NCBI RefSeq assembly: GCF_014696435.1
Contig: NZ_JACJQG010000001.1
Location: forward strand, 124,001 to 188,000
DNA: 64,000 bases
Reading direction: 5' to 3'
Source of the DNA: Calothrix anomala FACHB-343
Lineage (GTDB): Bacteria; Cyanobacteriota; Cyanobacteriia; Cyanobacteriales; Nostocaceae
Below, in pieces: positions 14,764 to 60,821 of the stretch. The notes below the pieces were generated by a model. It was not told the origin of the DNA. It made no database searches and worked only from the letters and a program-made list of their open reading frames with translations. Within the stretch, counting starts at the first letter, position 1, and each line of letters begins with the position of its first letter. The translations under genes were made by a program, and so were the position numbers.

Positions 14764-15048
14764 ATAATTATGGGAACTAGTAATTATCATCTTCAGTCGT
14801 CATACCTAAATATGTGTATCTTTTAATAGATACATAAGTTCAATGCTTGGCAGATAAAGTGTTTGAGATTATTAAGACGCCTTTCTACAAATTCAGGACT
14901 TACGCAAAGGTAACTAAAAAATGAACCGCAGAGAAGGCAGAGTTCACAGAGGAATAAAAGTTTGAGAGGTTTGATGCATGAGTCCTAAAATTGTTATAGA
15001 AAAAAGCTTTAACTCTATTAGAAACTTATTACAGTGGTATCAGCAGAT

Positions 15049-15972
15049 ATGAATATTAAGAAGCGTAAATTGTTGATTGGTTCTTTGTTTGCTGTATTGG
15101 TATGTGTACCTTTTGGTGTTGCAACTACCAGCAAAATATTAGCAGCAAATCCAATTCTGCAAGTGGCACAAGCAAGGTCTGCCTATAACCAATATATGCG
15201 TCAAGGTTACACTGCTACTAGGCAGAGAAATTACCGCAGAGCTTTAGGATTTTTTCAGCAAGCATTACAAGCAAGACCTGGAGATAGATACGCTAATGCA
15301 GCTATTAGAAACGTTCAAGGTTATATGCGAGGTCGGAAAACGTTAATCGGCTTTGTACCGGGTAAACCTGGTAGAGTCAGATCCGCCGCATCAAGGGGAA
15401 CTTGCTTTCAAAATGCAGATGTAGCGATTCCTTTAATTCCTAGTAGTAAGGAAGCTCAACACACCACAAAAGATCATCCTACATTCTTTTTCTACATTCC
15501 AAAAACTTCTAAAACAGTAGCAGGACTCGAATTTGCTTTGCGGGAAACTCCCGATAGCGATCCTATATATAAAGAAACTTTCCCGCCAGTTGGAGAAGCG
15601 GGAATTGTGAGCGTTACTTTACCTGCTAATCAACCAGCTTTACAAGCAGATAAAGAATATTATTGGAATTTTTCGATGATTTGCGATCCTAACAGTCGCG
15701 ATTTAGATGTCTTCCTAGAAGGCACAATTGAAGTCATGCAGGATGAAAACATTGCTGCTCAGATACAAGAAACATCCAAACCTTTAGATCGTGCGGTTCT
15801 CTATGCAACTGCTGGCTTTTGGGAAGACGCCATTAGCATTTTAGCTGATTTACGCCGTCAAAATCCCAATAATCCAGAAATTCAACAATATTGGGCAGAT
15901 TTATTAAAATCCGTGAACCTGGAACAGGTGACAGATAAGCCTTTATTACCTTGTTGTACTCCCCAGAGTTGA
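15049..15972 (+). CDS. Secreted DUF928-type protein with TPR segment
   Basis: 307 residues from the ATG at 15049; a GTG at 15034 is the other option. A signal peptide (KLLIGSLFAVLVCVPFGV) is followed by a TPR-like helix pair (about 45-95, with ALGFFQQALQARPGDRYA). The rest resembles the cyanobacterial DUF928 family: RGTCFQNADVAIPLIPS, FFFYIPKTSK, GLEFALRET and EYYWNFSMICDPNSRD. DUF928 genes often occur near CHAT or two-partner secretion genes in cyanobacteria; here that locus is 30 kb away. It is probably periplasmic; function unknown. Confidence 0.72.
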   Translation: MNIKKRKLLIGSLFAVLVCVPFGVATTSKILAANPILQVAQARSAYNQYMRQGYTATRQRNYRRALGFFQQALQARPGDRYANAAIRNVQGYMRGRKTLIGFVPGKPGRVRSAASRGTCFQNADVAIPLIPSSKEAQHTTKDHPTFFFYIPKTSKTVAGLEFALRETPDSDPIYKETFPPVGEAGIVSVTLPANQPALQADKEYYWNFSMICDPNSRDLDVFLEGTIEVMQDENIAAQIQETSKPLDRAVLYATAGFWEDAISILADLRRQNPNNPEIQQYWADLLKSVNLEQVTDKPLLPCCTPQS

Positions 15973-45660: not shown

Positions 45661-46179
45661 TTAAAACGGCCACCAAAAAGGTTTGGTCTCAGTATAAGTA
45701 CGGCTAATAGTCCGGGAATCGGGACGTTGTGCTTGTTTAAAATCCTTACCTAACATTTCATATAAGGCTTGAGAGGGGTTTTCAGATGGTTTCAAACTGA
45801 ATAAAGTTTGCGCACTATAATGATTGCAACCAACGCCTCTGCGTTCTACTGCACAAACAACAGGTTGGTTGTTTAATTTATCAGTCGTTAAATATTTAGA
45901 GCTACCCGTATTATAAATATTCTGTAAAGTTTTAGCTGCATTCTGACACTGTTGCAAAGCATCGCTAGCTGAGAAGTATTGGGGAAGAAAATTCAAAATA
46001 GTGTAATCTTTAGCAGTTCCACCATGAACCAAAGTTAAAGTAACCGTTGGTGTATTGGTGTTAGCCTTACAGGTGACTTGGACGTTACTAGCTTTGCTGG
46101 GTGCAGAGATTGCTGTAACCGCACCCAAGGCTAAGATTGGAGTCATGCCGATAGTTATCCAAGATAGCCATTTATTCAT
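45661..46179 (-). CDS. COP23-domain secreted protein
   Basis: 172 residues from the ATG at 46179, with GAGG about 8 bases upstream; an in-frame TTG at 46206 adds nothing conserved. A signal peptide (SWITIGMTPILALGAVTAISAP) precedes a COP23-type domain: VQVTCKANTNTPTVTL, ALQQCQNAAKTLQNIY, QPVVCAVERRGVGCNHYSAQTLFSLKP. COP23 was named as a circadian oscillating membrane-linked protein in a unicellular cyanobacterium; its function is unknown. Four cysteines suggest disulfides outside the cytoplasm. The C-terminus is TKPFWWPF. Confidence 0.82.
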   Translation of the reverse strand: MNKWLSWITIGMTPILALGAVTAISAPSKASNVQVTCKANTNTPTVTLTLVHGGTAKDYTILNFLPQYFSASDALQQCQNAAKTLQNIYNTGSSKYLTTDKLNNQPVVCAVERRGVGCNHYSAQTLFSLKPSENPSQALYEMLGKDFKQAQRPDSRTISRTYTETKPFWWPF

Positions 46180-46324
46180 ACTTGCCTCACTCCCTTTATT
46201 GACCAAAATTTAGGCTTGAATATACACTCATAATATTATGATTATTTTTAGTTAAATTTACTGAATTTACACTAAAAAAACATTTAAGTAATTTTTGCCT
46301 GGGATTGATTTTTCCCGACACATA

Positions 46325-49300
46325 ATGAAACAAATATCTCGCCAAATTGTTGCTACTGGTAGTGTTTATATTTGCTGTCTAATAGCTAGTTTTCCTTCCT
46401 TCGCCCAAATATCTGCCGATAACACACTTCCTAGCAATAGTCAGGTTTTACAATCCGGTAACCTCTTTGAAATTACAGGCGGTACACAATCCGGGAGTAA
46501 CCTGTTTCACAGCTTTCGCGACTTCTCTGTACTTGAGGGTGGCGAGGCTTTTTTCAAGAATGCAAATAATGTAACTAATGTTACTAATATTATCAGCCGA
46601 GTCACAGGTGGATCGATTTCCAACATTAATGGACTGATCCGGGAAAATTATGGTGCTAATTTTATCTTGATCAACCCCAGTGGGATTAACTTTGGCCCCA
46701 AAGCCCAACTCAATATAGGTGGCTCTTTTTTAGCAAGTACGGCGGAAAAAGTCAAATTTGCCGATGGTGCAGAATTTAGCGCTACTAATCCAGCTACCCC
46801 ACAACTCACTATTAGCGTGCCCATTGGCTTGCAATTTGGGCAAAATCCCCAAGCAATCAACGTCCAAGGTGATGGGCATAACATTACTTTGCAAAGTCCA
46901 ATTTTCTCGCCGTTTACCATCGGCGATAACACCGGACTCAAGGTGACACCAGGGCAAACTTTAGCCTTGGTGGGTGGTAACATTAACTTTGAGGGCGGAA
47001 CGGTTACAGCTAAAGGCGGACGCATTGAATTAGGTAGTGTGGCTGGGGGTTTAGTCAGCCTGGATACGACTGCTCAAGGCTGGAATTTAGGCTATGAAGG
47101 AGTCAGCAATTTTCAGGATATATCTTTATCACAAAAAGCCTTCGCAGACGCTAGCGGTTTAGGTAGTGGCTCAATTCAGTTGCAAGGAAGAAATATTGCC
47201 ATTAGAGATGGCTCGGTTGTGTTAATTCAAACCCTGGGTAATGATGCGGCAGGGGGGATTAATGTTCATGCTTCTGATTCCTTGTCTTTGATTGGTACTA
47301 CAGCTAATGGACAAATTTCCAGTAACTTATTTACAGAAACTCTTGGCGGTGGTAAAAGCGGCGATATTAGAGTTTCTACCCCCAGCTTATTGCTGCAAGA
47401 TGGAGCAGCGATATCTGCGGTGACTTACACTAGTGCGGCTGCTGGGAATGTGGAGATTAACGCCGCCGATTCTGTAAAAGTATTGGGATTTTCACCAGTT
47501 AACCCCAGCCGCTTCACTAATATTACAGCAGCAACTTTTGGGGCTGGTGATGCCGGTAGGTTGACTATATCAACACAACAGTTAACGGCAATGTCTGGCG
47601 GAAGTATTGCTTCTGTGACTGCCGGAACAGGCCCCGGTGGAAATGTGACGATCAATGCTGCCAAGTTGGTAGAATTAATCGGCGTCACACCTGGTGTTTT
47701 TACCCCCAGTGCTGTATCAGCAGGAACTGGCGGCCCGGGCAAGGCTGGCAGCGTCACCATTAATACTCAGCGTTTGGTGGTGAAAGATGGGGGCAGAGTG
47801 GATGCTTCTACCTTAGCAAGCGGGATGGCTGGTAGCGTGACAATTAATGCTACGGATGCTGTAGAGGTGAGTGGTACAGTTCCTGGCTCGGTGAATCCCA
47901 GTTTGATAATCTCCTCCGCTAACATTGTCGATGAGACTTTACAACAGTTGTTGCGAGTGCCTGCTATACCCAGTGGTGATTCTGGAGACATAACAATTAA
48001 CACGGGGAAATTGACTGTCACGGATGGGGCGCAATTGACTGTCAGAAATGATGGTAACGGGGATGCTGGCACCTTACGGATCAATGCTGGCTCGATTTTG
48101 CTCAGTAGTGGAGGTACGATCGCGGCAGACAATAAAGGTGCCGGATCTGGTGGAAATTTAATAATTGATACGGGTAAGTTGACAATTAGCGATCGCGCTT
48201 TTTTATCGGCGTCAACATTTGGCGATGGAACCGGCGGAGATATTAATATCCGCGCTACCGACTCAGTAGAAATAGTCGGTACTGGATTTGCCGAAATGCA
48301 AGGAACTTTTCAAGTCGGAGCGCTGTTGGGTTCACTGAAGCCGAGCGATCGCGGAACTGGCATTTTTATGAGCAATTCCGGTGCAGGTAGTTCCGGTAAC
48401 CTCAATCTTCAGACTCCCTCCTTAATTATGCGTAACGGAGGTATCATAGCCGATCTCACCTTTTCTCGAGGTGTGGGGGGAAACCTAAATGTTTTTGCCT
48501 CCGATCTAATTGACTTAAATGGTTCTGCCATTCAAACAGGAAATGTCATCGGTAGTACAGGTACGGCAGGTGATATCAAAATTGATACCAAACAATTATT
48601 GTTACAGGATGGCGCTACCTTTGTCAGTGCTACCTTCGGTAATGGTTTAGGTGGAAGTATTGACATTAACGCAACTGATAGCGTTCAGATCCAAAGAACA
48701 CCAATAGGGGCGGCGCTGTTAACTGGAATCTACACCAATAGTACCTTTGGTACGGCAAGGGGCGGCGATTTGCGAATTGACACTGGCAAACTATTTGTAG
48801 AAGCAGGGGTAATTGGCAGTAATACAGGAACTTCTACCCCGGCTGGCGTCATTCCCTTTGGGGGGCCTGGAGGCAATGTTATTGTTAATGCCAGCGAATC
48901 TGTAGAAATTGCCGGAGTCTTACCAGATCCAAGATTTCCTAGTGGTTTGGGAACCACAGGTTTTAGCGCTGCCCGATCAGGCGATGTAACGATTAATACT
49001 AAAAAATTAATTCTCAGCGAAGGAGCAGATGTATCAACTGCGACTTTGGGTGCGGGGATTGGGGGAACTTTAACTGTCAACGCTTCTGAATCTATTGAAC
49101 TGAGCGGTAAGACTGTCGGGGATTTGACATTAGGTGGGATATCGGCGGCGGCTGGTCGAGCAACATTACCAGAACTAATAGCTACAGGCGCTTCCGGCGA
49201 TATCAGAATTTCTACTAATAGATTAATTGTGCGGGATGGGGCAAAAATTGACGTACAAAGTTTAGGTAGCGGTAATGCTGGGAATATGCAAGTGGTGGCT

Positions 49301-49987
49301 AACTCCATCTTCTTAGATAATCAAGGCACTATCTCTGCTGCTACTACCTCTGGTGAAGGTGGTAACATCTCCCTGCAAACAGGTTCTTTACTCATGCGCC
49401 ATAACAGCCAAATATCTGCCACGGCTGGTGGTACTGGTAACGGAGGTAACATCACGATTACAGGCTTTAGCCCTGCTAACTTTGTGGCGTTGTTGGAAGG
49501 AAGTAAGATTACAGCCGATGCTGTTGCGGGTAGAGGTGGTAATATTAGCATCAACACCAGAGGATTATTTACCTGTCCGACTTGTCAAATTAGCGCTAGT
49601 TCTCAATTAGGTATTGCTGGACAAATCAGTGTCACAACTCCAGAAGTGGAAAGTAATTTTGAAGTTGTGGAAATACCCCAAGAAGTAGCAAAACCGGAAC
49701 AAGTGGTAGCACAAGCTTGTCGGGCGACTACTAGTCAAAATCGCAGCGAATTTACTATTACTGGGCGGGGTGGTTTACCGCCTCGTCCTAGCGAACAGCT
49801 AAGTAGTGGTGCTTTATTTAGTTTTGAGCCTGCTGCTAGGGCGGCTACAGAGGTGCAGTCTACTTCCCAATTACCATTACCGGCTAGAGGTTGGTATGTG
49901 AATAAGCAAGGTGTGGTGGTTCTTGCTAGTCAATCGCCTAATTCGAGTCCTTATAATTCTGGGTTAAGTTCACCTGATTGTCAGTAA
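46325..49987 (+). CDS. TpsA-type filamentous hemagglutinin/S-layer family exoprotein 1
   Basis: 1220 residues from the ATG at 46325. A signal peptide ends near SFPSFAQ, then a TPS/FHA N-terminal domain (about 25-160): SNLFHSFRDFSVLEGGEAFF, ISRVTGG, GANFILINPSGINFGPKAQL. The rest is a long right-handed beta-helix of about 45-residue repeats (GGNVTINAAKLVELIG type). The end has AQACRATTSQNRSEFTITGR, GGLPPRPSEQL and a last PDCQ, shared with the second TpsA. It should be exported to the surface through the TpsB barrel encoded 380 bp downstream. Ligand or adhesion target unknown. Confidence 0.92.
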   Translation: MKQISRQIVATGSVYICCLIASFPSFAQISADNTLPSNSQVLQSGNLFEITGGTQSGSNLFHSFRDFSVLEGGEAFFKNANNVTNVTNIISRVTGGSISNINGLIRENYGANFILINPSGINFGPKAQLNIGGSFLASTAEKVKFADGAEFSATNPATPQLTISVPIGLQFGQNPQAINVQGDGHNITLQSPIFSPFTIGDNTGLKVTPGQTLALVGGNINFEGGTVTAKGGRIELGSVAGGLVSLDTTAQGWNLGYEGVSNFQDISLSQKAFADASGLGSGSIQLQGRNIAIRDGSVVLIQTLGNDAAGGINVHASDSLSLIGTTANGQISSNLFTETLGGGKSGDIRVSTPSLLLQDGAAISAVTYTSAAAGNVEINAADSVKVLGFSPVNPSRFTNITAATFGAGDAGRLTISTQQLTAMSGGSIASVTAGTGPGGNVTINAAKLVELIGVTPGVFTPSAVSAGTGGPGKAGSVTINTQRLVVKDGGRVDASTLASGMAGSVTINATDAVEVSGTVPGSVNPSLIISSANIVDETLQQLLRVPAIPSGDSGDITINTGKLTVTDGAQLTVRNDGNGDAGTLRINAGSILLSSGGTIAADNKGAGSGGNLIIDTGKLTISDRAFLSASTFGDGTGGDINIRATDSVEIVGTGFAEMQGTFQVGALLGSLKPSDRGTGIFMSNSGAGSSGNLNLQTPSLIMRNGGIIADLTFSRGVGGNLNVFASDLIDLNGSAIQTGNVIGSTGTAGDIKIDTKQLLLQDGATFVSATFGNGLGGSIDINATDSVQIQRTPIGAALLTGIYTNSTFGTARGGDLRIDTGKLFVEAGVIGSNTGTSTPAGVIPFGGPGGNVIVNASESVEIAGVLPDPRFPSGLGTTGFSAARSGDVTINTKKLILSEGADVSTATLGAGIGGTLTVNASESIELSGKTVGDLTLGGISAAAGRATLPELIATGASGDIRISTNRLIVRDGAKIDVQSLGSGNAGNMQVVANSIFLDNQGTISAATTSGEGGNISLQTGSLLMRHNSQISATAGGTGNGGNITITGFSPANFVALLEGSKITADAVAGRGGNISINTRGLFTCPTCQISASSQLGIAGQISVTTPEVESNFEVVEIPQEVAKPEQVVAQACRATTSQNRSEFTITGRGGLPPRPSEQLSSGALFSFEPAARAATEVQSTSQLPLPARGWYVNKQGVVVLASQSPNSSPYNSGLSSPDCQ

Positions 49988-50038
49988 GGGTTTCACGCTT
50001 ATGTAGCTTTCTTAAGATAGTTATGTGCAATTATCGGC

Positions 50039-50286
50039 TTAGTTAATATCGTTTTGGGTGAGTTGATGAGTTTTTAAACGCAAAGGCACGCGGAGGTTAA
50101 CGCGAAGTTTCGCAGAGTGTTTTACTAGCCAATTCGCTAGGAATTAATGACATTGTTTATTTAGTTAGTATCGCTTTGGGTGAGTTGATGAGTTTTTAAA
50201 CGCAAAGGCACGCGGAGGTTAGCGCGAAGTTTCGCAGAGTGTTTTACCAGCCAAGTCGCTAGGAATTAATGACATTGTGTATTTAG
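50039..50286. repeat. 122-bp tandem duplication between tpsA and tpsB
   Basis: Two head-to-tail copies (starting 50039 and 50161) that differ at a handful of positions. Each contains AAACGCAAAGGCACGCGGAG, GCGAAGTTTCGCAGAG and TCGCTAGGAATTAATGACAT. Short relatives with ACGCAAAGGTACGCTGAG are at 55082-55125. Confidence 0.9.
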
Positions 50287-50366
50287 ATGTGAGGATTTTA
50301 GGTGTATTTTCCCAGAAATAAAGTAAATTTTTTATATCAGGCAGATTCGCAGAGTTGCAGAGGAGA

Positions 50367-52136
50367 ATGCAAGATAATAGTCGAAAAAGTATTTTGAGAA
50401 CTCATGTTTGGCGACAGAGAAGTTATTTATCTCCTTGTGTGAGCTTGATGCTATTGTTGCATCTGCTGTATCAGATAAACTCTGCTTCCGCCCAGTCAAT
50501 TAATCCGGTTACCCCTAAGCCACCGGAACAAATTCCGCCTAATCCCCTACCACCAACAAATCCACCAATTCAAGTACAACCGACGCCACCACCAACCCCG
50601 GATGAAGTTTTGGATATTCCCGGAACTATTACGGTGCAGAGGTTTGAATTTGTGGGGAATACAGCATTTAGTCAAGAACAGTTAAATTCAGCGATCGCTA
50701 ATTTTACTGGCAAACCAATCACTTTTGCACAACTGCTGAGAGCGGCTAATCAAATCACTGAATTCTATGTGCAAAAGGGCTATATTACCTCTGGTGCTTA
50801 CATCCCCGCCCAAGAATTTCGCGGTGGGACTGTTAAAGTTCAGGTAGTAGAAGGCAGTTTATCGGATATTCAGGTTAACGTCACCAAAGGACGGTTGAAC
50901 CCTGATTATGTTCGCAGTCGCATTGCGATCGCTACTCATACACCACTTAATATTAACAGTCTCCAGGAAGCGTTGCAACTTTTGCAACTCAATCCCCTAA
51001 TTGAAAGCTTAGATGCAGAACTTACTGCGGGTACTCGTCCGGGTGTAAATTCGCTCACAGTTACAGTCAAGGCGGCGAAAACCTTTAGCGCTCAACTGAA
51101 TTTAAATAACAACCGTAACCCCAGCGTTGGCAGTTTAGAGCGGAGTATCGCTTTATCCGAAGATAGCCTTTTCGGAATAGGCGATCGCTTTAATTTTACT
51201 TATAAAAACACCGATGGTAGCAATAGCTTTGAAGGTGGTTATACTTTACCGATAAATGCCCGCAATGGCAGTATAGGTTTTAACTATCGCATTAGCGATA
51301 ACCGGATTATTGAACCACCATTTAATGATTTAGATATTGAGGTAGATTCCCGTGAGTTTGAGTTATCTTTTCGTCAACCGATTATCCAAAGAGCTACGCC
51401 AGATATTAGCCAAGAACTCACATTAAGTTTAACCGCCGCGAGAAGGGAAAGTAATTCTTCCATTCAAGGCGTAGAATTTCCCTTATTTCCTGGCGCTGAC
51501 AACCAAGGAGAAACTAGGTTAACAGAATTAAGTTTTGCTCAGGAATGGCTACAACGGAGTCGCCAAGAAGTTTTCGCTGCCCGTTCGGAATTTAACTTAG
51601 GAATTGGAGCCTTTAACGCCACAGTTAATAGCAGCGAACCAGACAGCCGTTATTTTCTCTGGCGGGGACAAATGATTTATTTGCGCCTTCTGAGTCAGCC
51701 AAATACCCAAAATGCGATCGCGCCGACTTTGTTATTGCGTTCTAACCTGCAATTAGCCACTACTTCTCTACTTTCCCTCGAACAGTTTAGTCTAGGCGGT
51801 CAAGGAACAGTAAGAGGTTATCGCCAAGATGCATTACTCAGCGATAATGGCTTTTTTGCTTCTGCAGAACTGCGATTACCCATCGCCAACTTCCCAGAAA
51901 TTAAAGGAACTTTGCAAATCGCTCCATTTATCGACTTTGGCACTGTTTGGAATACAGGCAGAGACAATCCCAACACTAATACCCTAGCAGGTACAGGATT
52001 AGGGCTACTTTGGCAAATGGGCGATCAATTCACCGCCCGCTTTGACTGGGGTATACCACTGATAAATCTTGATACCGACAAGCGGACATGGCAAGACAAT
52101 GGTTTGTATTTTCAGTTGGAGTATAAAGCGTTTTGA
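50367..52136 (+). CDS. TpsB-type outer-membrane transporter (ShlB/FhaC/HecB family)
   Basis: 589 residues from the ATG at 50367, with AGAGGAG just upstream; a TTG at 50355 is in frame. A signal peptide (LSPCVSLMLLLHLLYQINSASA) precedes a proline-rich linker (about 50-90), a POTRA domain (about 95-175: VQRFEFVGNTAFSQEQLN, YVQKGYITSGAYIPAQ) and a 16-strand beta barrel with GGQGTVRGY, the conserved loop-6 type motif, near 490 and a terminal aromatic (LEYKAF). It exports TpsA proteins over the outer membrane. It is the only TpsB in the window although two TpsA genes are present. Confidence 0.93.
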   Translation: MQDNSRKSILRTHVWRQRSYLSPCVSLMLLLHLLYQINSASAQSINPVTPKPPEQIPPNPLPPTNPPIQVQPTPPPTPDEVLDIPGTITVQRFEFVGNTAFSQEQLNSAIANFTGKPITFAQLLRAANQITEFYVQKGYITSGAYIPAQEFRGGTVKVQVVEGSLSDIQVNVTKGRLNPDYVRSRIAIATHTPLNINSLQEALQLLQLNPLIESLDAELTAGTRPGVNSLTVTVKAAKTFSAQLNLNNNRNPSVGSLERSIALSEDSLFGIGDRFNFTYKNTDGSNSFEGGYTLPINARNGSIGFNYRISDNRIIEPPFNDLDIEVDSREFELSFRQPIIQRATPDISQELTLSLTAARRESNSSIQGVEFPLFPGADNQGETRLTELSFAQEWLQRSRQEVFAARSEFNLGIGAFNATVNSSEPDSRYFLWRGQMIYLRLLSQPNTQNAIAPTLLLRSNLQLATTSLLSLEQFSLGGQGTVRGYRQDALLSDNGFFASAELRLPIANFPEIKGTLQIAPFIDFGTVWNTGRDNPNTNTLAGTGLGLLWQMGDQFTARFDWGIPLINLDTDKRTWQDNGLYFQLEYKAF

Positions 52137-52204
52137 GGGGTTAGGGGTTAGGGGCTAGGAGCTAGGGGCTAGGGAATAAGAGGGAAAAGGAGGACAAATG
52201 ACAA

Positions 52205-52260
52205 TTGTACAGACAAAGGTTCATCGCGTCTCTAACCAATGACAACTGACAACTGACAAC
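52205..52260 (+). repeat. Dispersed palindrome copy 7 (decayed) plus TGACAAC heptamers
   Basis: TTGTACAGACAAAGGTTCATCGC-like (left arm mutated) with GCGTCTCT, followed by three TGACAAC units (52240-52260), directly before the CHAT gene. Upstream, 52140-52200 consists of GGGGTTAGGGGCTAGG-type short repeats. Confidence 0.8.
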
Positions 52261-52275
52261 TGACTATTAACTAAA

Positions 52276-55023
52276 ATGATTTATAAAAAATACCGTCGTT
52301 TATTAATATTGATTTTTTCTGGCTTATTGGGACTGTTATCCACTATTACTATCCCCGTTAGGTCGCATTCTCTTAATTTACAAGCTTTATCTAATCAAAG
52401 CTGTTCTTCAGCGTCTCCTTGTCCGCAGCAGAATGCTGACGCTGGCGCTTTGGAGTTAGCTAGAGATGGGGAACGGCGCTACAATGCTGGAGATTTGGAA
52501 GCAGCAGCGCAGTTATGGCAACAAGCGGCTGAGTCTTATGAGAAAATAGGCGATCGCGAAGGGATGACGAAAAGCCTAATTAATAAATCTCAAGCTTTAC
52601 AAGATTTAGGGCTGTATCCCAAAGCCTGCAAGACTTTACTTCAAGTTTTTGCGATTCCTAATCCTAACTGTAGCGCTAGCCAAATCGAGCAACTACAAAA
52701 AAATCTGACTCAAAAACCCGATTCATTGACTCGCACTCAAGCTATTGGTTTACAGAGTTTGGGTGATGTACTGCGCAGACAAGGTTTATTGCAAAAATCC
52801 CAGGAAATTTTGCAGTTAAGTTTATCGTCGCTTCCGGAATCGCCAGCAAAAAGCGCTGTGCTATTGAGTTTAGGGAATACCGAACGAGCATTAGGTAACC
52901 AAATCCGCGATCGCTGGGATTATGATCTAGTTACAGAAATTATTGATCGCAAATCTGTTATTGATGCCCTAGCACCTTACCAAAAAGCGTTTAACTACTA
53001 TCAGCAAGCAGTAAATATAGCTTCAGCGCCAGCCATTCCCAAAGTTCAAGCCCAACTCAATTATTTTCAGCTATTACGAGAAACCCAAGAATGGTGGAAC
53101 GAACAAACTAACCGCCGTATTGCTTCTTGGAAGAGATTTTCGGAAGCGAAATTAATTCAACGCGCTCAAGATTTTAACTCGCAGTTACAATCGCAGTTGA
53201 GCCAAGATGCGCAAACATTGCAAAATCAAATTCCTTCTCAGTTGGCGACTTTGACACCCAATCGTGCGGGAATTTATGCTCAGATTAACTATGCTGAATC
53301 TTTGCTGCACAGCAACCAAACATCAGAGGTAGAATCTTTACTCAAGAATGCACTACAACAGGCGCGGACTTTACAAGATAAACGAGCCGAAACCTACGCC
53401 CTTGGCTATTTAGGGAAATTTTACCGCCAACAAGGTGAATTAACTCAAGCAACTCAGCTGACGCAGCAAGCGCTGATGTTATCCCAAGAGCAAAATATTA
53501 CTGGCGACGCTAGAGAAATTACTTATTTATGGCAATCGCAATTAGGCGGTTTACTTAGAAAACAGGGCAATTCCAAAGGCGCGGTCGCAGCTTACACCGC
53601 CGCATTTAATACACTGCAATCTCTACGTAGCGATTTAAATGCTAACAACCAAGACGTTCAATTTGACTTTATCCAAGAAGTTAAACCTGTCTATATAGAA
53701 TTAGTTGATTTGCTCTTGAAATCAAATTTGAGCAATGAGGAATTAAACTACCTCATTGTTCCCAATCCTAACCTTAATCGGCAAAAAGCTGAGACGAAAA
53801 AAGCGCAAGATCGTTTAGAATTAGCGCGGAGAGTGATCGAATCTCTACAATTAGCTGAATTAGATAACTTCTTTCAAGATCCTTGTTCTGAGACTACAAA
53901 TGTAGCCGTACAAATTGATAATATTGACCCTTCTGCTGCCGTTATTTATCCTATTGTGTTACCAGATAGGATAGAAGTCATTCTTTCTTTAGCTGGAAAA
54001 CCCTTACAAGAAGTAAAAATTCCCATTCAAGAATCAGCAGTTAATGAGACTTTAGACCGACTTTATGATTATTTAGATAACAGTAGTATTAATAACTCTG
54101 CCCGGAATATTTTCTCCACATCTAACCCGAATCCCAGAGAATTAAAAGAAAATATTGAGACACTGTTACCAATTTTTGCAGAAGTTTATAACTGGTTAAT
54201 TAAACCTTTCGAGAATCAGTTAAACAGCAACCAAATTCAAAATTTAGTCTTCGTGTTAAATGGCAGATTGCAGCGAGTACCCATAGCAGCCCTGTATGAT
54301 GGACAAAAATATCTCATTGAAAAATATAGCGTTGCTCTGGTTCCTAGTTTGCAATTAATTTCACCACAAAAACTGCAAAGACAAAAATTAAAAGTATTAG
54401 CGGCGGGAGTCAGCGAACAAATAAAAGTTCAAGGCGAATTTTTTGCTGCACTAGTTAACGTACCCAAGGAATTAGAGCAAATTAAACAAACTTTTCCTGG
54501 TTCCCAGAAGTTACTCAATCAAGAGTTTACTGCTAAAACAATTCAGAAAAATTTACAACAGAATTACCCAGTAGTTCACTTAGCAACACATGGATTATTT
54601 AGTTCAAATCCCCAGCGTAATTTTATTATTACCGGCGATGGTCAAAGTATTAGTATTGATGAATTGAGTAATTTGTTAAAGGAAACAGGTACAACAGTAG
54701 AACTATTAGTGCTGAGTGCATGTGAAACCGCTACTGGTGACGAACGCGCTGTTTTAGGTTTAGCTGGTATGGCTGTGCGTTCAGGCGCTCGCAGTACTCT
54801 TGCAAGTCTTTGGCCTGTGGGTGATACTTCTACAGCAGTATTTATGGGTGAATTTTACCAACACTTAAAGCAGCCAGGAACTAAACAAATAGAAGCGCTA
54901 AGAAAGGCTCAATTATCGCTTTTAGAGTCTTTAAAATCGAATCCAACTTTTCCTGAGTTAAAAAATCTTCCTCCCCATCCATATTATTGGGCACCTTATG
55001 TATTAGTAGGCAATTGGCAATAA
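52276..55023 (+). CDS. Secreted TPR-CHAT protein 1 (caspase-like)
   Basis: 915 residues. A signal peptide or anchor (LLILIFSGLLGLLSTITIPV) is followed by TPR-type helical repeats (about 55-480) and a C-terminal CHAT domain (about 600-915). The catalytic dyad is His772 in HLATHGLF and Cys816 in LSACETATGD; the close GLAGMAVRSGARSTLASLWPVGD is a family block. CHAT proteases are of the caspase clan, some with proven peptidase activity. The signal sequence would place it outside the cytoplasm. It follows tpsA and tpsB on the same strand. It is homologous to the CHAT protein at 55207. Confidence 0.92.
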   Translation: MIYKKYRRLLILIFSGLLGLLSTITIPVRSHSLNLQALSNQSCSSASPCPQQNADAGALELARDGERRYNAGDLEAAAQLWQQAAESYEKIGDREGMTKSLINKSQALQDLGLYPKACKTLLQVFAIPNPNCSASQIEQLQKNLTQKPDSLTRTQAIGLQSLGDVLRRQGLLQKSQEILQLSLSSLPESPAKSAVLLSLGNTERALGNQIRDRWDYDLVTEIIDRKSVIDALAPYQKAFNYYQQAVNIASAPAIPKVQAQLNYFQLLRETQEWWNEQTNRRIASWKRFSEAKLIQRAQDFNSQLQSQLSQDAQTLQNQIPSQLATLTPNRAGIYAQINYAESLLHSNQTSEVESLLKNALQQARTLQDKRAETYALGYLGKFYRQQGELTQATQLTQQALMLSQEQNITGDAREITYLWQSQLGGLLRKQGNSKGAVAAYTAAFNTLQSLRSDLNANNQDVQFDFIQEVKPVYIELVDLLLKSNLSNEELNYLIVPNPNLNRQKAETKKAQDRLELARRVIESLQLAELDNFFQDPCSETTNVAVQIDNIDPSAAVIYPIVLPDRIEVILSLAGKPLQEVKIPIQESAVNETLDRLYDYLDNSSINNSARNIFSTSNPNPRELKENIETLLPIFAEVYNWLIKPFENQLNSNQIQNLVFVLNGRLQRVPIAALYDGQKYLIEKYSVALVPSLQLISPQKLQRQKLKVLAAGVSEQIKVQGEFFAALVNVPKELEQIKQTFPGSQKLLNQEFTAKTIQKNLQQNYPVVHLATHGLFSSNPQRNFIITGDGQSISIDELSNLLKETGTTVELLVLSACETATGDERAVLGLAGMAVRSGARSTLASLWPVGDTSTAVFMGEFYQHLKQPGTKQIEALRKAQLSLLESLKSNPTFPELKNLPPHPYYWAPYVLVGNWQ

Positions 55024-55081
55024 CTGTTTTTGGGGTAGAGTAATGTGATTAAATTCATTTGTACAAAGGTATGCTTTTTTT

Positions 55082-55168
55082 AACGCAAAGGTACGCTGAG
55101 GTTAACGCAAAGGTACGCTGAGTTTTTTAAGTCTATATCTTTGACTATTGACTATTGACTATTGACAG
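55082..55168. repeat. ACGCAAAGGTACGCTGAG duplication and TTGACTA array
   Basis: Two copies of AACGCAAAGGTACGCTGAG in tandem (about 55081-55120), then four 7-bp units TTGACTA/TTGACAG (55141-55168), between the two converging CHAT genes. Confidence 0.8.
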
Positions 55169-55206
55169 CCTTCATCAGCTATTTAGATTTACATCGCTTT
55201 TACTGA

Positions 55207-57828
55207 TTACAACCAATTCCCTACCAAAATAAAAGATGCCCAATGATAGGGACGATGAAAATTTGTATTAGGAAATTGGTGGAGAAAAGCTAATTGCACA
55301 TTACGCAATGCTTCTGCTTTAGTAATTTGAGGTTTATTAAGTTCCTGGTAAAACCTAATCATAAATTCAGCCGTGGAAGCATCGTTAACTTGCCAAACTG
55401 CTGCCAGAGTACTGCGCGCGCCAGCGCTAATTGCTATTCCTGCTAATCCTAAAGCAGCGCGATTATCACCTCTTGCTGTTTCACAAGCGCTGAGAATTAG
55501 TAATTCAATTGGCTTGTGCATTCTGGAATAATCTAAACGTAGTAATTCATTTAAATCTTTAACGCGAATTTGGGCTTGCCAATCTAAAATATAAGTTTCT
55601 TCTGGATTAGAACTAAATTTACCGTGAGTTGCTAAGTGAACAACATTAAAAGGACGGGAATTAATTTCTTGCCGGATATTCTCTTGAATAAATTTTTTAT
55701 TTTCTAGAATTTGGCTATGGGGAACTCTTTGTTTTATTCCTGTTAATTCTAAGGCGACACTCTCTATCGTTCCTAAACCTGCTTTTTGGAAACTAGGAGC
55801 ATCAGTAGCACCAGCAATTAAAACATTTAAATTTTCTCTTTTTAAAGGTTTTGGTTCTAGTAATTGCAACCCAGAAGTAACGCTGACTGCATATCTTTCT
55901 ATTAAATATTTTTTTCCACCATAAAGCATAGACATGGGTAAGTTTCGCAGCGAACCATCTAAAATAAATACTAAGTTTTTAATTTGGCTTTGTTCGCGAT
56001 TGCTGGTGATTTCTAATTCGGTTTCAAATGGTTTAATTAACCAGTTATATAATTGTTGAGATTGTTTTTTAAAGCGAAAAAGGCTGCTAGTTATTTTTTC
56101 TGCAGATTGTCGCAGTTGGTTAACTGTTTCATCTACTTGAGTTTGCGAAACATTTTGATTGGCATAGTGACGTAAATTATCAACACCAGGTAATTTAATA
56201 ATTACTTCTAATCTATCTGGTAAAATAATGGGATAAACAACTGCGGCGTTAGGGTCTAAATTATCAATATTTACTGCTACTGGTTTAGCGCAAGAATCGC
56301 CAAAGAAATTATCTAATTCAGCTAATTGTAGAGCTTCCATAATATTACGCGCTTGTTTCAAATCTTCTCGACTGGGTTCAGAAGAACGCAAGAATAAATC
56401 AACTAATTGTCTGTATACAGGTTCTACAGTTTCGCGAAAAGAAAATTGAATTTCTGGATTGAGAGCGACTAAATCGCTACGTAAATCCTTGAGAGTATTA
56501 AAAGCTTGGGTGTAATATTTAATGGCTTCGGGGTTGGCTTCGCGGTTATTTTTGGTTTTTTCTGCCTGATTTTGGAGAATTCTGCCCATTTGCCATTGCC
56601 ATTGATAAGCAATATCTGATGCATTACTTGCTTGGGCAATTATTAAGGCAGATTGGGTAAATTTTTGTGCCTTTTCCCATGCAGATATTTTTTCATATAA
56701 TTCGCCAAAAATACCAAGAGCGTATGATTCTGCTCGTTGATCTGCTAAATTTTGTGATTGGGTAATTGCGGTATTTAATATGCGCTGAATTTCCGAATAA
56801 TCAGGATTGAATTTAATCAGGTTTTGGGCAAAGTTTACACGAGCATAAATAGCAGAGCGGCTAGGAGGTAATTGTTGGAGAGCAGCAGTAATTTCTGGGA
56901 CTAAATGAGTAATAGATGAAAAATCTTGGCTTTCAATTAAGACAGCAAATTGATTAAGCTTGACTTGAGCTTTGATTAATTGTGAAGTGGTAACTTGGTC
57001 TGCTTGTTGATAGCGATTTAAGGCTTGTTTGATATATTGCTGAATAATTTCTGTATCTTGAACTGCTTTTGCTCTTCTAGCTAAAGCTACCTCAGTATTA
57101 CCTAAAGCGAGTAAAACTTGACTTTCGGCTTGGGGTAAACCAACTCGTTGCGCGATCGCTAAACTAGTCTGTAAAATTTTGTGAGACTGTTCTAAATCCC
57201 TAACTTGGCGGTAAATATTGCCCAAATTGAGCAAGCCAGTTACCTTAAACTCAGAATCTGGTTGTTGATTAATTTGTTGTTCTAGCTGCGTTAAAATCTT
57301 GCTAGCGCGACGATACAGCCCTAAAGATTGCATCGCTAAAGCTTGATTCATCTGGCTACCCATAACGCCAGTGCGATCGCTTGCTTGACTATATAATAAT
57401 TCTGCATTCTCCCAAGCTGCTAAAGCTGCTTCTCCGTTACCTGTGGCTAGTTGTAAATGTGCTTGCGCATTCTCTGCTTGGGCGCGGGCTTGATTAACCT
57501 GGGGGCTGGGTGATAAATCTTTTAATAATGACAAACTTTGATTAATCGCTGCTTGTGCTGGTTGCCATTGTCCTAGTTTTTGCTGGGCTAAAGATGTAAA
57601 AGTTAAAGCTTGGGCTTGCTGAAGGATATCTTTGGTATTTTGGGAAATCTTTAACGCCTGTTGTAGTGTTTGCGCAGCTTGGGCAAACTGTTGAGCATCA
57701 TAATATTTTTTACCCTGTTGCAAAAGTGCGATCGCAGAATCTTCAGCCTTCACCGAAAATAAAGTTGAGGTACCTAAGCTAAGTAGCAAACTCAAACCAG
57801 CAATTAATATCAACCGCCAAAACTTCAT
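55207..57828 (-). CDS. Secreted TPR-CHAT protein 2 (caspase-like)
   Basis: 873 residues from the ATG at 57828 (MKFWRLILIAGLSLLLSLG, a clear signal peptide). TPR-like repeats fill about 30-440 (ALLQQGKKYYDAQQFAQAAQ, TLQQALKISQNTKD). The CHAT domain has His735 in HLATHGKF, Cys782 in LSACETARGD and GLAGIAISAGARSTLAAVWQVND. The ATG overlaps the stop codon of the upstream tpsA by four bases (57825-57828), so the exoprotein and this protease are translationally coupled. The longer open frame from 57870 is read through the end of tpsA and is not used. Confidence 0.92.
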   Translation of the reverse strand: MKFWRLILIAGLSLLLSLGTSTLFSVKAEDSAIALLQQGKKYYDAQQFAQAAQTLQQALKISQNTKDILQQAQALTFTSLAQQKLGQWQPAQAAINQSLSLLKDLSPSPQVNQARAQAENAQAHLQLATGNGEAALAAWENAELLYSQASDRTGVMGSQMNQALAMQSLGLYRRASKILTQLEQQINQQPDSEFKVTGLLNLGNIYRQVRDLEQSHKILQTSLAIAQRVGLPQAESQVLLALGNTEVALARRAKAVQDTEIIQQYIKQALNRYQQADQVTTSQLIKAQVKLNQFAVLIESQDFSSITHLVPEITAALQQLPPSRSAIYARVNFAQNLIKFNPDYSEIQRILNTAITQSQNLADQRAESYALGIFGELYEKISAWEKAQKFTQSALIIAQASNASDIAYQWQWQMGRILQNQAEKTKNNREANPEAIKYYTQAFNTLKDLRSDLVALNPEIQFSFRETVEPVYRQLVDLFLRSSEPSREDLKQARNIMEALQLAELDNFFGDSCAKPVAVNIDNLDPNAAVVYPIILPDRLEVIIKLPGVDNLRHYANQNVSQTQVDETVNQLRQSAEKITSSLFRFKKQSQQLYNWLIKPFETELEITSNREQSQIKNLVFILDGSLRNLPMSMLYGGKKYLIERYAVSVTSGLQLLEPKPLKRENLNVLIAGATDAPSFQKAGLGTIESVALELTGIKQRVPHSQILENKKFIQENIRQEINSRPFNVVHLATHGKFSSNPEETYILDWQAQIRVKDLNELLRLDYSRMHKPIELLILSACETARGDNRAALGLAGIAISAGARSTLAAVWQVNDASTAEFMIRFYQELNKPQITKAEALRNVQLAFLHQFPNTNFHRPYHWASFILVGNWL

Positions 57829-60821
57829 GCTTTTTCCCTCAACCCTTGACAATCGGGAACATTTAACCAATTACCTTTAGGTGTAACTACCACAGGTTCA
57901 GCAATCAAATTCACCGCACCATCCACCCCTTTCACCCAACCTTGAGCCTCAACAATTTTCGCTGCATTATCTAATTGATGGTGTTGCTGATGGCTATTAA
58001 TAGCTGCTGATGTTGGTAAATTCTCTGGTTGTACTAATCGCCAATCTTCCCAAGCTGCGTCTGGGTTTAAGACTTCGCGGGGTGAAGCAGGTAAACCACC
58101 ACGACCTGTAACAATAAATTCGCTACCCTGACTCGCAGCTACACAAAGATTTTGATTAATTAAGCCCGCCACATTCACAACATCTTTGGGTAATTCTGTC
58201 AAGCCTTGAGAAGGATCTACATCCGCATTGCTGATTTCGACAACACCCGCAACCCCAAATTGTGAACTAGCAGTGATATCACTTAAATCAGTTTGTCGTT
58301 CGCGAAACTGCAACCCAAAAACGCCTTGGGTAGAAATATTAATCTTTCCCCCTCGACCTTGAAAAGCATCGGCGGTGATATCGCTATTTTCTTGCGCAAC
58401 GCTGACAATAAACGGAGCCTGAATCGTAATGTTTCCACCATCGCCGCCAGCATTTGCAGTTCCCGCAGTTGTCGAGATTTGGCTATTGTGGCGCAGTAAT
58501 AGAAATTCTTTGATATCTAAAGTGATATTACCGCCATTTGTCGAGCGAGTTTGGGCTGTAATCTTGCTATTATCCAGCCTGATTTTATCGGCGGTAATGC
58601 TCAAATTACCTGCAATTCCTTCGCCTTTACTACCAACTGTAGCCTGCGCTCCCTGTGATATTAGTAACTCAGGAGTTTGAATCGTCAAAGAACCCCCATC
58701 GCCTTGATTTTCAGTTTGTGCAAACAAACCGCTAGAAATTTGTTGATTGGCTGAGGTTCCTGTAAGTTGCACTAATTGGGAAGCATTAATCGTTAAAGTT
58801 CCCGCTTTTCCCAAACCAAAGGTGTTAGTGGAAATTTGTCCGCCATCCCGAACCAGTAACACAGGGGCGGTGATAGTTAAAGCGCCAGCGTCTCCCGTAG
58901 CTCTACGGTTAGCTTGTACGTCTATTTTGCTAGGATTTAAACCATTAGCGGAAGTACCAATTACTTCTACAGATTTATAAGCATTAACTGCTACAGTTCC
59001 TCCCCTCCCAGAACCGAAAGTGCTAGCAGAAATTAGCGCCCCATCTAAAATTTGCAATACAGGAGTGTTAATTGTTAAAGAACCCGCATCACCTGTTTGT
59101 CTGGTGGAAGCGAATAAGCCACTGGAACGCTGATTGTTAGGTGTAGTCCCACGAATTTGGACTAATTCAGTAGCATTGATAGTCGAACTTCCGCCCTTAC
59201 CCGCCCCAAAAGTACCAGATCCCACCTGCGCCCCATCTAAAATTTGAAAGACAGGCGTATTAATTGTTAAAGAACCTGCATCACCTTTACCTTCAGTTTG
59301 CGAAACTAAGACAGCAGATTGACCATTAGCTGCTGTTCCCCTGGCTTGGACTAATTTTGTCGCATTTACAGTTAAATTTCCCCCTTTACCGAAGTAACGA
59401 GTTGAAGATGAAACCTGCGCGCCATCCAAGACTTGTAACACCGGAGTATTAATGGTTAAGGAACCTGCATCGCCTTGACCTTGAGTCACAGCGATTAATG
59501 CACTAGGCTTATTATTGGCGGAAACACCAATTACTTGAATTAATTCCGAAGCATTGACAATGACATTTCCTCCGCGACCATCTGATATGGTGCTAGATGA
59601 AGCTTCTGCACCATCACGAATCAACAACACAGGAGTATTAATCGTCAATGTCCCGGCATTTCCCGGCCCTTGAGTCACAGCTATCAAAACGCTAGGATAC
59701 AGACCTATGCCGCTTAATTCTACAGAATTAGGCGCATTAACGGTCAAATTTCCGCCTTTTCCTGGCCTATTGGTGAAAGTATAAACCTGTGCCCCATCGC
59801 GAATTTTTAACACAGGAGTATTAATAATTAAAGAAGCTCCATCCCCAGTGCTATTAGTCGTAGTGCCTATACTGCTAAGATTTTGACCATTAATTGCAGA
59901 TCCTATTACTTCTATAGAATCGGTAGCATTCACAGTCAAACTGCTATCTGTTCCTGTTCCTAAGGTATTGATTTGAATTTTAGAACCATCGCTCATCTGC
60001 AAACGACGGCTTTGTACTTGAATGTAACCGCCAGTGTTACCACTGGTGACAACGTTAGCTTGTTGTGACAGAGAAATATTTTGGAATTCTTGCACGCCTT
60101 GATAACCAAGACTATAGCCAGTTACTATTGGTGTGAGATTTACTAAACTATTACCCGCAACACTTCCTAACTCAATTCGTCCATCAATTGCGCGGACAAT
60201 TCCCGCTTCGAGAATCACATCACCACCCACCAAAGCTAAAGTTTTTTCTGGCTGAACTTCCAAACCATTAACTGCACGATTAACGATACTTCCAGGATTC
60301 GCCCCAAATTGTAAACCAATGGGAGTGCTGACAGTTAACAGTGGTTTTGTGGAAGATACAGCAGTATTGAATTGATAACCATCAGCAAATTTGACGCTAG
60401 TAGCTGTACTTGCTATAAATGAGCCGTTAATATCTAATTTGGCATTGCGCCCAAAAACTATACCATTGGGATTGATTAAGAATAAATTTGCATTGCCATC
60501 TATGCCTAAAGTGCCGAGAATATTTGAGGAATTACTGCCCGTTATCCGGCTAAAAATCTGAGTAATTCCCGTAGGATTGGCAAAATAAACTGTTTTGCCC
60601 TCTTCAATATTAAATTCTTGAAAACTGTGAAATAAATTGGTGTCGCGGATTGCGCCACCATCTATGCGGTCAGCAGCCGCTCCTTTGATAATGACGTTGG
60701 GTGTAATTACTGAACTTTCTGTTCCTAGAGTATTATCTTGAGTAATTTGGGCTACTGCGGGATAGTTGAAGAAGGCGATCGCCAAAAATCCCATCAGTAG
60801 ATATGAGGAGTGGTTTATCAT
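57825..60821 (-). CDS. TpsA-type filamentous hemagglutinin/S-layer family exoprotein 2
   Basis: 998 residues. The signal peptide (SYLLMGFLAIAFFNYPAVAQ) precedes a TPS domain (about 25-165: NLFHSFQEFNIEEGKTVYFA, GNANLFLINPNGIVFGRNAKL). About ten regular repeats of roughly 52 residues follow, of the type DAGSLTINTPVLQILDGAQV, forming a beta helix. The C-terminus repeats the features of the first TpsA: CVAASQGSEFIVTGRGGLPA, then GNWLNVPDCQGLREKA. No TpsB is adjacent on this strand; the one at 50367 is the obvious candidate. Its stop overlaps the CHAT start. Confidence 0.92.
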   Translation of the reverse strand: MINHSSYLLMGFLAIAFFNYPAVAQITQDNTLGTESSVITPNVIIKGAAADRIDGGAIRDTNLFHSFQEFNIEEGKTVYFANPTGITQIFSRITGSNSSNILGTLGIDGNANLFLINPNGIVFGRNAKLDINGSFIASTATSVKFADGYQFNTAVSSTKPLLTVSTPIGLQFGANPGSIVNRAVNGLEVQPEKTLALVGGDVILEAGIVRAIDGRIELGSVAGNSLVNLTPIVTGYSLGYQGVQEFQNISLSQQANVVTSGNTGGYIQVQSRRLQMSDGSKIQINTLGTGTDSSLTVNATDSIEVIGSAINGQNLSSIGTTTNSTGDGASLIINTPVLKIRDGAQVYTFTNRPGKGGNLTVNAPNSVELSGIGLYPSVLIAVTQGPGNAGTLTINTPVLLIRDGAEASSSTISDGRGGNVIVNASELIQVIGVSANNKPSALIAVTQGQGDAGSLTINTPVLQVLDGAQVSSSTRYFGKGGNLTVNATKLVQARGTAANGQSAVLVSQTEGKGDAGSLTINTPVFQILDGAQVGSGTFGAGKGGSSTINATELVQIRGTTPNNQRSSGLFASTRQTGDAGSLTINTPVLQILDGALISASTFGSGRGGTVAVNAYKSVEVIGTSANGLNPSKIDVQANRRATGDAGALTITAPVLLVRDGGQISTNTFGLGKAGTLTINASQLVQLTGTSANQQISSGLFAQTENQGDGGSLTIQTPELLISQGAQATVGSKGEGIAGNLSITADKIRLDNSKITAQTRSTNGGNITLDIKEFLLLRHNSQISTTAGTANAGGDGGNITIQAPFIVSVAQENSDITADAFQGRGGKINISTQGVFGLQFRERQTDLSDITASSQFGVAGVVEISNADVDPSQGLTELPKDVVNVAGLINQNLCVAASQGSEFIVTGRGGLPASPREVLNPDAAWEDWRLVQPENLPTSAAINSHQQHHQLDNAAKIVEAQGWVKGVDGAVNLIAEPVVVTPKGNWLNVPDCQGLREKA

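Follow-up and report, generated by a model that had tools for sequence, protein, structure and literature searches.

The closest described counterparts of the locus analyzed here are two-partner secretion (TPS) systems, in which an exoprotein (TpsA) is paired with a transporter (TpsB). CdrA of Pseudomonas, a two-partner-secreted adhesin, is thought to be anchored by a cysteine hook at its C-terminus, and LapG, a periplasmic protease, frees it by cutting the C-terminal tail (PMC5422565, PMC11898600). In HMW1 and HxuA of Haemophilus, a C-terminal disulfide domain remains on the periplasmic side, where it locks the pore of TpsB (PMC5422565, PMC8151025); the available parts of these accounts name no dedicated protease gene and refer merely to unidentified proteases for some TpsA proteins. 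LepA of Pseudomonas is a TpsA that is itself a protease and acts extracellularly, according to a 2017 review in which genes for maturation proteases are said to seem not to belong to TPS operons (PMC5422565). Filamentous hemagglutinin (FHA) of Bordetella is matured by a dedicated protease, SphB1, a subtilisin autotransporter encoded outside fhaB-fhaC. Here, we describe a locus at positions 46325-60821 of a 64,000-nucleotide stretch of the cyanobacterium Calothrix anomala FACHB-343 (assembly GCF_014696435.1, contig NZ_JACJQG010000001.1, positions 124,001 to 188,000; hereafter, the window), in which genes for proteins with TPRs and a caspase-like CHAT domain adjoin tpsA genes.

To our knowledge, no substrate is known for most of the numerous CHAT proteins of this genome. 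HetF and other cyanobacterial TPR-CHAT proteins share the CHAT domain and TPRs with those of the locus. HetF is a divisome protein with a transmembrane segment (PMC8406250) and lies outside our tree sample, in which nearly all TPS-linked CHATs stand apart from control CHATs of the source genome and most carry a second conserved cysteine. Craspase of type III-E systems is also a TPR-CHAT protease (PMC9729208) but is RNA-guided, whereas the CHAT proteins described here bear predicted signal peptides and are encoded beside tpsA. CHASE2, in some proteins combined with a CHAT-like domain, and DUF1822 are parts of the EACC2-caspase-CHASE2 systems and also recur near TPS-CHAT loci, and neither profile matches any open reading frame (ORF) of the window. 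The terms "two-partner" and "hemagglutinin" are absent from the paper describing those systems (PMC8195603). Among open-licence papers, we found none linking the CHAT domain to two-partner secretion, hemagglutinin or filamentous hemagglutinin, and the available parts of cyanobacterial CHAT-domain papers showed no link to TPS; with coverage limited to open-licence literature, the novelty of the pairing is unproven.

Our main finding is that the coupling of tpsA and CHAT genes is conserved and looks functional, as judged from linkage, operons, gene fusions and co-variation. A first-pass annotation of the window had suggested a caspase-like protease that works on or together with a beta-helical exoprotein, and we still find no better reading. 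With moderate confidence, we propose a two-partner-secretion module with a dedicated protease in its own operon, in which a C-terminal domain (CTD) of TpsA would act as a periplasmic stopper that is docked, and probably cut, by an exported TPR-CHAT protein. Such a module would resemble CdrA/LapG of Pseudomonas and LapA/LapG in its tail anchor and periplasmic release protease; unlike in CdrA/LapG, the protease is caspase-like, carries TPRs, and is encoded beside tpsA or sometimes fused to TpsA. The LapG family itself (PF06035) was found in none of 60 genomes of the class, source genome included, in a search that does match the control Caulobacter. The CTD has two cysteines near the C-terminus, as do HMW1/HxuA/CdrA-type tails, a likeness drawn by setting descriptions rather than sequences side by side. 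As for FHA, a dedicated protease is proposed to mature TpsA, but one encoded in the operon, unlike SphB1. TPS-CHAT fusions would be TpsA proteins that are themselves proteases, as LepA is, the fused domain being a CHAT of the same enzyme clade that is also encoded separately.

The linkage of TPS and CHAT genes is real and general, and the window locus is one case of a widespread pairing. Linkage within 10 kb was examined in eight single-contig genomes of the class with complete match lists, selected for their one-contig assemblies and the presence of TPS matches; two of 48 TPS rows (G033 389282 and G016 2038946) were dropped as second pieces of neighbours. A CHAT domain lay within 10 kb of 26 of the remaining 46 TPS genes, compared with a mean of 2.9 and a maximum of 12 in 2000 rotations of the CHAT positions, and within 5 kb of 19 (rotation mean 1.6, maximum 7). 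With fusions excluded, 12 of 32 TPS genes had a CHAT within 10 kb (mean 1.9, maximum 9). Fourteen of the 46 had a same-strand CHAT domain in an open frame of equal length, which we read as one frame. Beyond these genomes, a CHAT match was present in 56 of 80 TPS regions from 30 other genomes against 5.2 expected, 21 of them holding a single-frame TPS-CHAT fusion, and in 18 of 25 TPS loci of the source genome against 4.5 expected, with three fusions. The 80 regions were hand-picked among the best-scoring rows listed, usually one per cluster and omitting most rows of very fragmented genomes; any CHAT match in the stretch was counted, including a fragment in L104, and the expected numbers use candidate counts as CHAT density. 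Conversely, when aligned TPS-linked CHATs served as the query, 51 of the 80 loci of named relatives that were retrieved contained a TPS gene, as did 44 of the 55 spanning at least 15 kb. One gene order prevails, with TPS before CHAT: among neighbouring labelled genes, TPS>CHAT occurred 64 times, TPSB>CHAT 15, CHAT>TPS 10, convergent 6 and divergent 3. The CHASE2 labels in these gene-order strings come from a single-linkage cluster that mixes in unrelated proteins, its members having matched four window ORFs with other domains. Across source-genome and other regions, 32 CHATs lay downstream of TpsA or TpsB with a gap of <600 nt, 19 of them with overlapping ORFs, a count based on longest ORFs and possibly overstated.

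Nearly all linked CHAT domains also fall in one clade. In a tree of 103 CHAT domains, one branch (support 95/96) united 50 of the 53 separate linked CHATs with every one of the 26 fused CHATs and with 3 of the 24 controls, the controls coming from 20 regions of the source genome only. A second branch (100/98) held 19 control and two linked CHATs (L061 and L076), and a third, small branch two control and one linked CHAT (L091:2981-5407); these three linked CHATs are probably chance neighbours of TPS genes. Group labels required 10 changes on the tree, compared with a shuffled mean of 43. Twenty-five fusions fell in one branch together with two control CHATs and one separate CHAT, and the 26th, L144, was placed beside L069 among the separate CHATs (100/93); fusion therefore arose at least twice. 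Two control CHATs, from stretches without TPS, group with the linked types, L184:7691-10372 (+) with the separate and L183:9203-10735 (-) with the fused ones, and each may have a partner in trans.

The active-site region distinguishes the groups further. Separate linked CHATs mostly read LSACxTAxGDxRAxLG, and most controls LSACDTGxGxGDGVIG. In aligned columns, the His/Cys dyad is intact in all 53 assessable separate and all 26 fused linked CHATs (the fragment L104, one of 54 separate rows, was not assessable), and 24 of 26 controls have both residues; in 16 of the 26 fusions the dyad His is followed by Ala, giving HA rather than HG. A second conserved cysteine precedes the CHAT domain in 40 of 51 separate CHATs of TPS regions, in one of 26 fusions (L144) and in one of 26 control-region CHATs (L184, of the linked clade). 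The same cysteine is present in 79 of 81 CHATs of a set of named relatives, which was fetched by similarity; in 42 of these 81, it and the dyad Cys are the only cysteines after residue 45. A CHAT profile searched against PDB gave 91 matches, the 60 listed being TPR-type or other repeat proteins, and was uninformative.

In the window, the ORFs and Pfam domains bear out the gene order given in the first-pass annotation: TpsA, TpsB and TPR-CHAT on the plus strand, converging with TpsA and TPR-CHAT on the minus strand. The features are as follows.

46325-49987, plus strand: TpsA-1, ATG start; TPS domain, repeats and CTD (longest ORF from a TTG at 46295).
49718-49981, plus strand: cysteine pair of the TpsA-1 CTD; first Cys codon 49718-49720, GRGGLP 49763-49780, last Cys codon 49979-49981 (codons checked).
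50355-52136, plus strand: TpsB; POTRA_2 and ShlB barrel (Pfam).
52276-55023, plus strand: TPR-CHAT-1; signal-peptide-like N-terminus, TPRs, CHAT at residues 636-913.
53884-53886, plus strand: conserved pre-CHAT cysteine C537 of CHAT-1 (codon checked).
54589-54591, plus strand: dyad histidine H772 of CHAT-1 (aligned columns, codon checked).
54721-54723, plus strand: dyad cysteine C816 of CHAT-1 (aligned columns, codon checked).
57828-55207, minus strand: TPR-CHAT-2, ATG start, 873 aa; CHAT at residues 588-871 (longest ORF, 887 aa, from a TTG at 57870).
55483-55485, minus strand: dyad cysteine C782 of CHAT-2 in the 873-aa protein, C796 in the 887-aa ORF (codon checked).
55624-55626, minus strand: dyad histidine of CHAT-2, H749 in the 887-aa ORF (codon checked).
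56290-56292, minus strand: conserved pre-CHAT cysteine C513 of CHAT-2 in the 873-aa protein (codon checked).
60821-57825, minus strand: TpsA-2; TPS domain, repeats and CTD.
57849-58145, minus strand: cysteine pair of the TpsA-2 CTD; first Cys codon 58145-58143, GRGGLP 58106-58089, last Cys codon 57851-57849 (codons checked).

The locus has the features of type Vb two-partner secretion, with an N-terminal TPS domain on both exoproteins (PF05860, E 2.7e-63 and 4.9e-58) and a TpsB combining POTRA (POTRA_2, E 3.3e-24) and a barrel (ShlB, E 9.3e-34); the repeats of TpsA-1 and TpsA-2 presumably form a beta-helix. Both TPR-CHAT proteins match CHAT (PF12770, E 1.4e-64 and 7.2e-57), each has TPR matches, and their His/Cys dyads are intact, as the first-pass annotation had stated. 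Its reported four-base overlap of tpsA-2 and the CHAT-2 gene was likewise recovered, as ATGA. From the ATG onwards, C513 and C782 are the sole cysteines of CHAT-2. A mirror-image copy of the converging arrangement is present in Tolypothrix sp. FACHB-123 (L185), in which the counterpart of CHAT-2 is 85% identical. The source genome (9.24 Mb, 144 contigs) has 93 PF12770 rows and 30 PF05860 rows, pieces and divergent members included. It has 13 ShlB rows, two of which are pieces of one frame, and sharing of TpsB among TpsA proteins would therefore be general in this genome rather than peculiar to the window locus. Tandem arrays of TpsA genes accompanied by a single TpsB also occur in stretches that lack CHAT, with four TpsA in L079 (G000:C135) and five in L111 (G048:C38).

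The CTD comprises approximately 100 residues at the end of plain TpsA proteins, with the consensus C...F..TGRGGLP..P...IVEAQGW....G.V.L.A......C. It was detected in 92 of 95 plain TpsA of a first set, in all 62 of the named-relative set, in both single-chain TpsA-TpsB proteins, and in one of 26 TPS-CHAT fusions. Exactly two cysteines occur in the CTD of 91 of the 92 plain TpsA, and two are present in both TpsA of the window. No Pfam-A or NCBIfam family covers the CTDs of the window TpsA, and a CTD profile searched against PDB chains found no relative (best E 0.14). The residue two positions ahead of the first CTD cysteine is Q in 54 of 73 CTDs with a CHAT and in 5 of 40 without, a column comparison in which relatedness was not controlled and which was not used as evidence.

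POTRA domains are periplasmic. In two single-chain TpsA-TpsB proteins, L110:9497-13822 (+) and L116:9534-13925 (+), the order is TPS domain, helix, CTD, POTRA and barrel, with the end of the CTD 26 residues (L110) and 30 residues (L116) before the start of POTRA_2; the CTD should therefore be periplasmic in both chains. A TPR-CHAT gene comes directly after each chain and overlaps it when read as the longest ORF.

This topology bears on the location of the CHAT proteins, which the first-pass annotation had assigned to a surface system. It had predicted signal peptides on both window CHATs, and both N-termini do pass a home-made signal-peptide rule. Nearly all plain TPS proteins and fusions should have a signal peptide, yet the rule accepts 73 of 103 of the former and 14 of 26 of the latter; it also accepts 91 of 456 other ORFs. 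By this rule, 43 of 52 separate CHATs in TPS regions look exported, but so do 17 of 21 control CHATs of the source genome. Export therefore does not set the linked CHATs apart, a signal peptide was rejected as their mark, and export alone is no pointer to a surface role. The position of the CTD shortly before POTRA in the two TpsA-TpsB chains, together with separate CHATs that have a signal-peptide-like N-terminus and no TPS domain, points instead to the periplasm; this evidence is slight, but it favours periplasm over surface, and a surface location finds no support.

In all 26 TPS-CHAT fusions, the CHAT domain is C-terminal. Pfam scans of all 26 (E up to 0.01) gave a TPR match only in L144, also the sole fusion with a CTD, so that CTD and TPR are both undetected in the other 25, in which divergent TPRs below the Pfam threshold could have escaped detection. 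Among separate linked CHATs, by comparison, TPR_12 was found in 23 of 24 scanned, and their TpsA partners bear CTDs. L144, which keeps both CTD and TPR and has lost one CTD cysteine, looks like a fused operon. In two genomes, a family-2 glycosyltransferase lies in frame N-terminal to a TPS-CHAT fusion (L062:5180-10768 (+) and L141:5269-11712 (-)), and the start of the L133 fusion resembles, by eye, a glycosyltransferase remnant; a cytoplasmic glycosyltransferase ahead of a Sec-exported domain is odd.

Co-variation of TpsA parts with the neighbouring CHAT protein was assessed by distance correlation over 70 of 74 TpsA-CHAT pairs left after removal of near-copies (MAFFT alignment; 69 of 74 with profile alignment). 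The CTD gave the highest values, r 0.66 with the TPR part and 0.56 with CHAT, compared with 0.32 and 0.24 for the TPS domain and 0.21 and 0.11 for the helix beside the CTD, a repetitive segment and possibly a noisy control. When partners were shuffled 2000 times within genomes, the observed value was equalled never for CTD-CHAT, once for CTD-TPR and 352 times for TPS-CHAT, and the helix values were reached in 79 (TPR) and 222 (CHAT) shuffles. The shuffled mean for CTD-TPR was 0.54, so the bulk of the raw correlation lies between genomes; the partner-specific part appears modest but clear. In the 10 pairs with tpsB between the genes, CTD-CHAT reached r 0.88 (2 of 1000 shuffles) compared with 0.24 for TPS-CHAT (116 of 1000). 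CTD-TPR also holds in the source genome alone (11 pairs, r 0.44, 1 of 1000), and with profile alignment TPS-CHAT fell to r 0.08 (29 of 1000).

In the proposed module, TpsA would be exported first by Sec and then through the TpsB barrel. The CTD, with one cysteine at each end, would remain behind in the periplasm, where it would plug the TpsB pore as a stopper, probably closed by a disulfide, and tether the exoprotein, a role suggested because of the CTD-TpsB chains and the HMW1, HxuA and CdrA precedents. The adjoining TPR-CHAT protein would reach the periplasm by Sec, and its TPR superhelix would dock the CTD of the TpsA with which it is paired. Sequence comparison supports the docking, through the co-variation and the fact that TPR and CTD are missing together from fusions. 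The caspase-like His/Cys dyad would then cut in or near the CTD, leading to maturation or release of the exoprotein; we infer this cleavage, the CTD disulfide and the periplasmic location. In the main fused variant, CHAT would replace the CTD at the C-terminus of the chain, so that neither docking part would be needed. In the window, two such TpsA/CHAT pairs would face each other beside a single TpsB. If correct, the module would give one CHAT clade a concrete candidate substrate, docking domain and compartment; it would give two-partner secretion the in-operon protease that, according to the 2017 review (PMC5422565), appears not to occur; and it would make a caspase-like enzyme the controller of cyanobacterial exoprotein release.

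Several observations weigh against this proposal. The CTD is as frequent in TpsA whose stretch lacks a CHAT gene (40 of 42) as in TpsA with one in it (52 of 53); it is therefore a general TpsA feature here and no CHAT signature, and TpsA without a nearby CHAT would either depend on a CHAT in trans or do without. In the G-R/K-GGLP motif, the basic residue varies, so no cleavage site is identified; GRGGLP was considered as the CHAT cleavage site and left unproven, the CTD being as frequent without a CHAT gene and its Arg not invariant. The linkage thins at short range, with 6 of 32 TPS genes near a CHAT within 5 kb when fusions are excluded (rotation mean 1.0), a value that some of the 2000 rotations reach. 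TPS-TPR also exceeds nearly all within-genome shuffles (4 of 2000 reach it), and those shuffles move just 32 of the 70 pairs, from nine genomes. The CTD-CHAT value depends on method, being r 0.33 with profile alignment (0 of 1000) against 0.56 with MAFFT, and it is weak in the source genome alone (MAFFT, r 0.20, 100 of 1000; profile alignment, 0.34, 14 of 1000). The CTD is the end of tpsA nearer to the CHAT gene in all pairs, and co-inheritance of DNA blocks could explain part of the co-variation; in the 10 tpsB-separated pairs, the helix adjoining the CTD likewise scores high (r 0.61, 6 of 1000).

The main rival, which we consider rather unlikely, is envelope signalling: TpsA would be a sensor or ligand-binding arm whose CTD reports its state to TPR-CHAT, which would cut other periplasmic proteins in a stress response, self/non-self recognition or cell death, with neighbouring CHASE2, DUF928 and DUF1822 proteins as further parts. 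It takes this place because of the gene neighbourhood and because EACC2-caspase proteins with C-termini such as CHASE2, in neighbourhoods with an extracytoplasmic function (ECF) sigma factor and DUF1822, are predicted sensing systems (PMC8195603). Within 4 kb in 125 TPS+CHAT loci, profiles built here, whose families were named by Pfam on one to three examples each, found DUF928 in 66, CHASE2 in 55, DUF928 together with CHASE2 in 49, and DUF1822 in 18; in 22 loci the CHASE2 protein itself also carried a CHAT-like domain. In the eight single-contig genomes, 10 of 37 DUF928 and 10 of 55 CHASE2 rows had a TPS match within 10 kb, compared with rotation means of 1.0 and 1.4 (0 of 2000 as high); most rows of both families, however, have no TPS nearby. 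Furthermore, the window locus has none of the three families within 4 kb, a DUF928-profile ORF lying 31 kb away at 15034-15972 (plus strand), and a second substrate is not apparent.

An elaboration that draws on both the stopper proposal and the signalling neighbourhood, and that we consider unlikely, is a redox-gated "stopper and scissors". The thiol-disulfide state of the two-cysteine stopper and of the second CHAT cysteine would set CHAT activity and the hold of the stopper, and nearby CHASE2, DUF928 and DUF1822 genes would couple the state of the exoprotein to a caspase-type signal across the inner membrane.

We also consider it unlikely that TPR-CHAT serves in the periplasm as a chaperone or adaptor, holding the CTD or loading TpsA on TpsB, with its dyad being secondary. 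The strongest co-variation signal, CTD-TPR, would suit such a role; however, the dyad is kept in every assessable linked CHAT, separate or fused, and 25 of 26 fusions retain the catalytic domain with TPR undetected.

Delivery, in which TpsA would carry CHAT outside the cell as an effector or surface protease in the manner of a CdiA C-terminal toxin or LepA, appears improbable. The C-terminal CHAT of the 26 fusions is consistent with it, and LepA is a precedent for a TpsA secreted as a protease (PMC5422565). Separate CHATs, however, lack a TPS domain and bear signal-peptide-like N-termini themselves, and the tail of plain TpsA is a conserved CTD rather than a variable toxin; this holds for both window TpsA, a variable C-terminal toxin of the contact-dependent inhibition (CDI) type being absent from them. 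The clustering of neighbour families covered recurrent families, and variable immunity genes would escape it.

A neighbourhood without function, in which two families abundant in the source genome merely cluster in the same variable regions, is very improbable: some neighbours do arise by chance, as the grouping of the L061, L076 and L091:2981-5407 CHATs with controls indicates, but the rotation test and the separate clade contradict it, as do the prevailing gene order with short gaps or overlaps and fusions of at least two origins.

The surroundings of the window locus offer further observations. Upstream, at 42070-45048 (plus strand), lies a gene for a protein with two MshE-type stretches binding cyclic di-GMP (c-di-GMP) and TPRs; c-di-GMP control through this neighbour was set aside, the gene's cluster recurring in just four loci. 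A COP23 family protein is encoded at 45661-46206 (minus strand), divergent from tpsA-1, and has a relative in L185. Between tpsA-1 and tpsB, a 122-base unit occurs in two copies at 50039-50286 with 95% matches, and short tandem repeats of heptanucleotides occupy the gaps around the CHAT genes at 52136-52174, 52240-52264 and 55141-55166.

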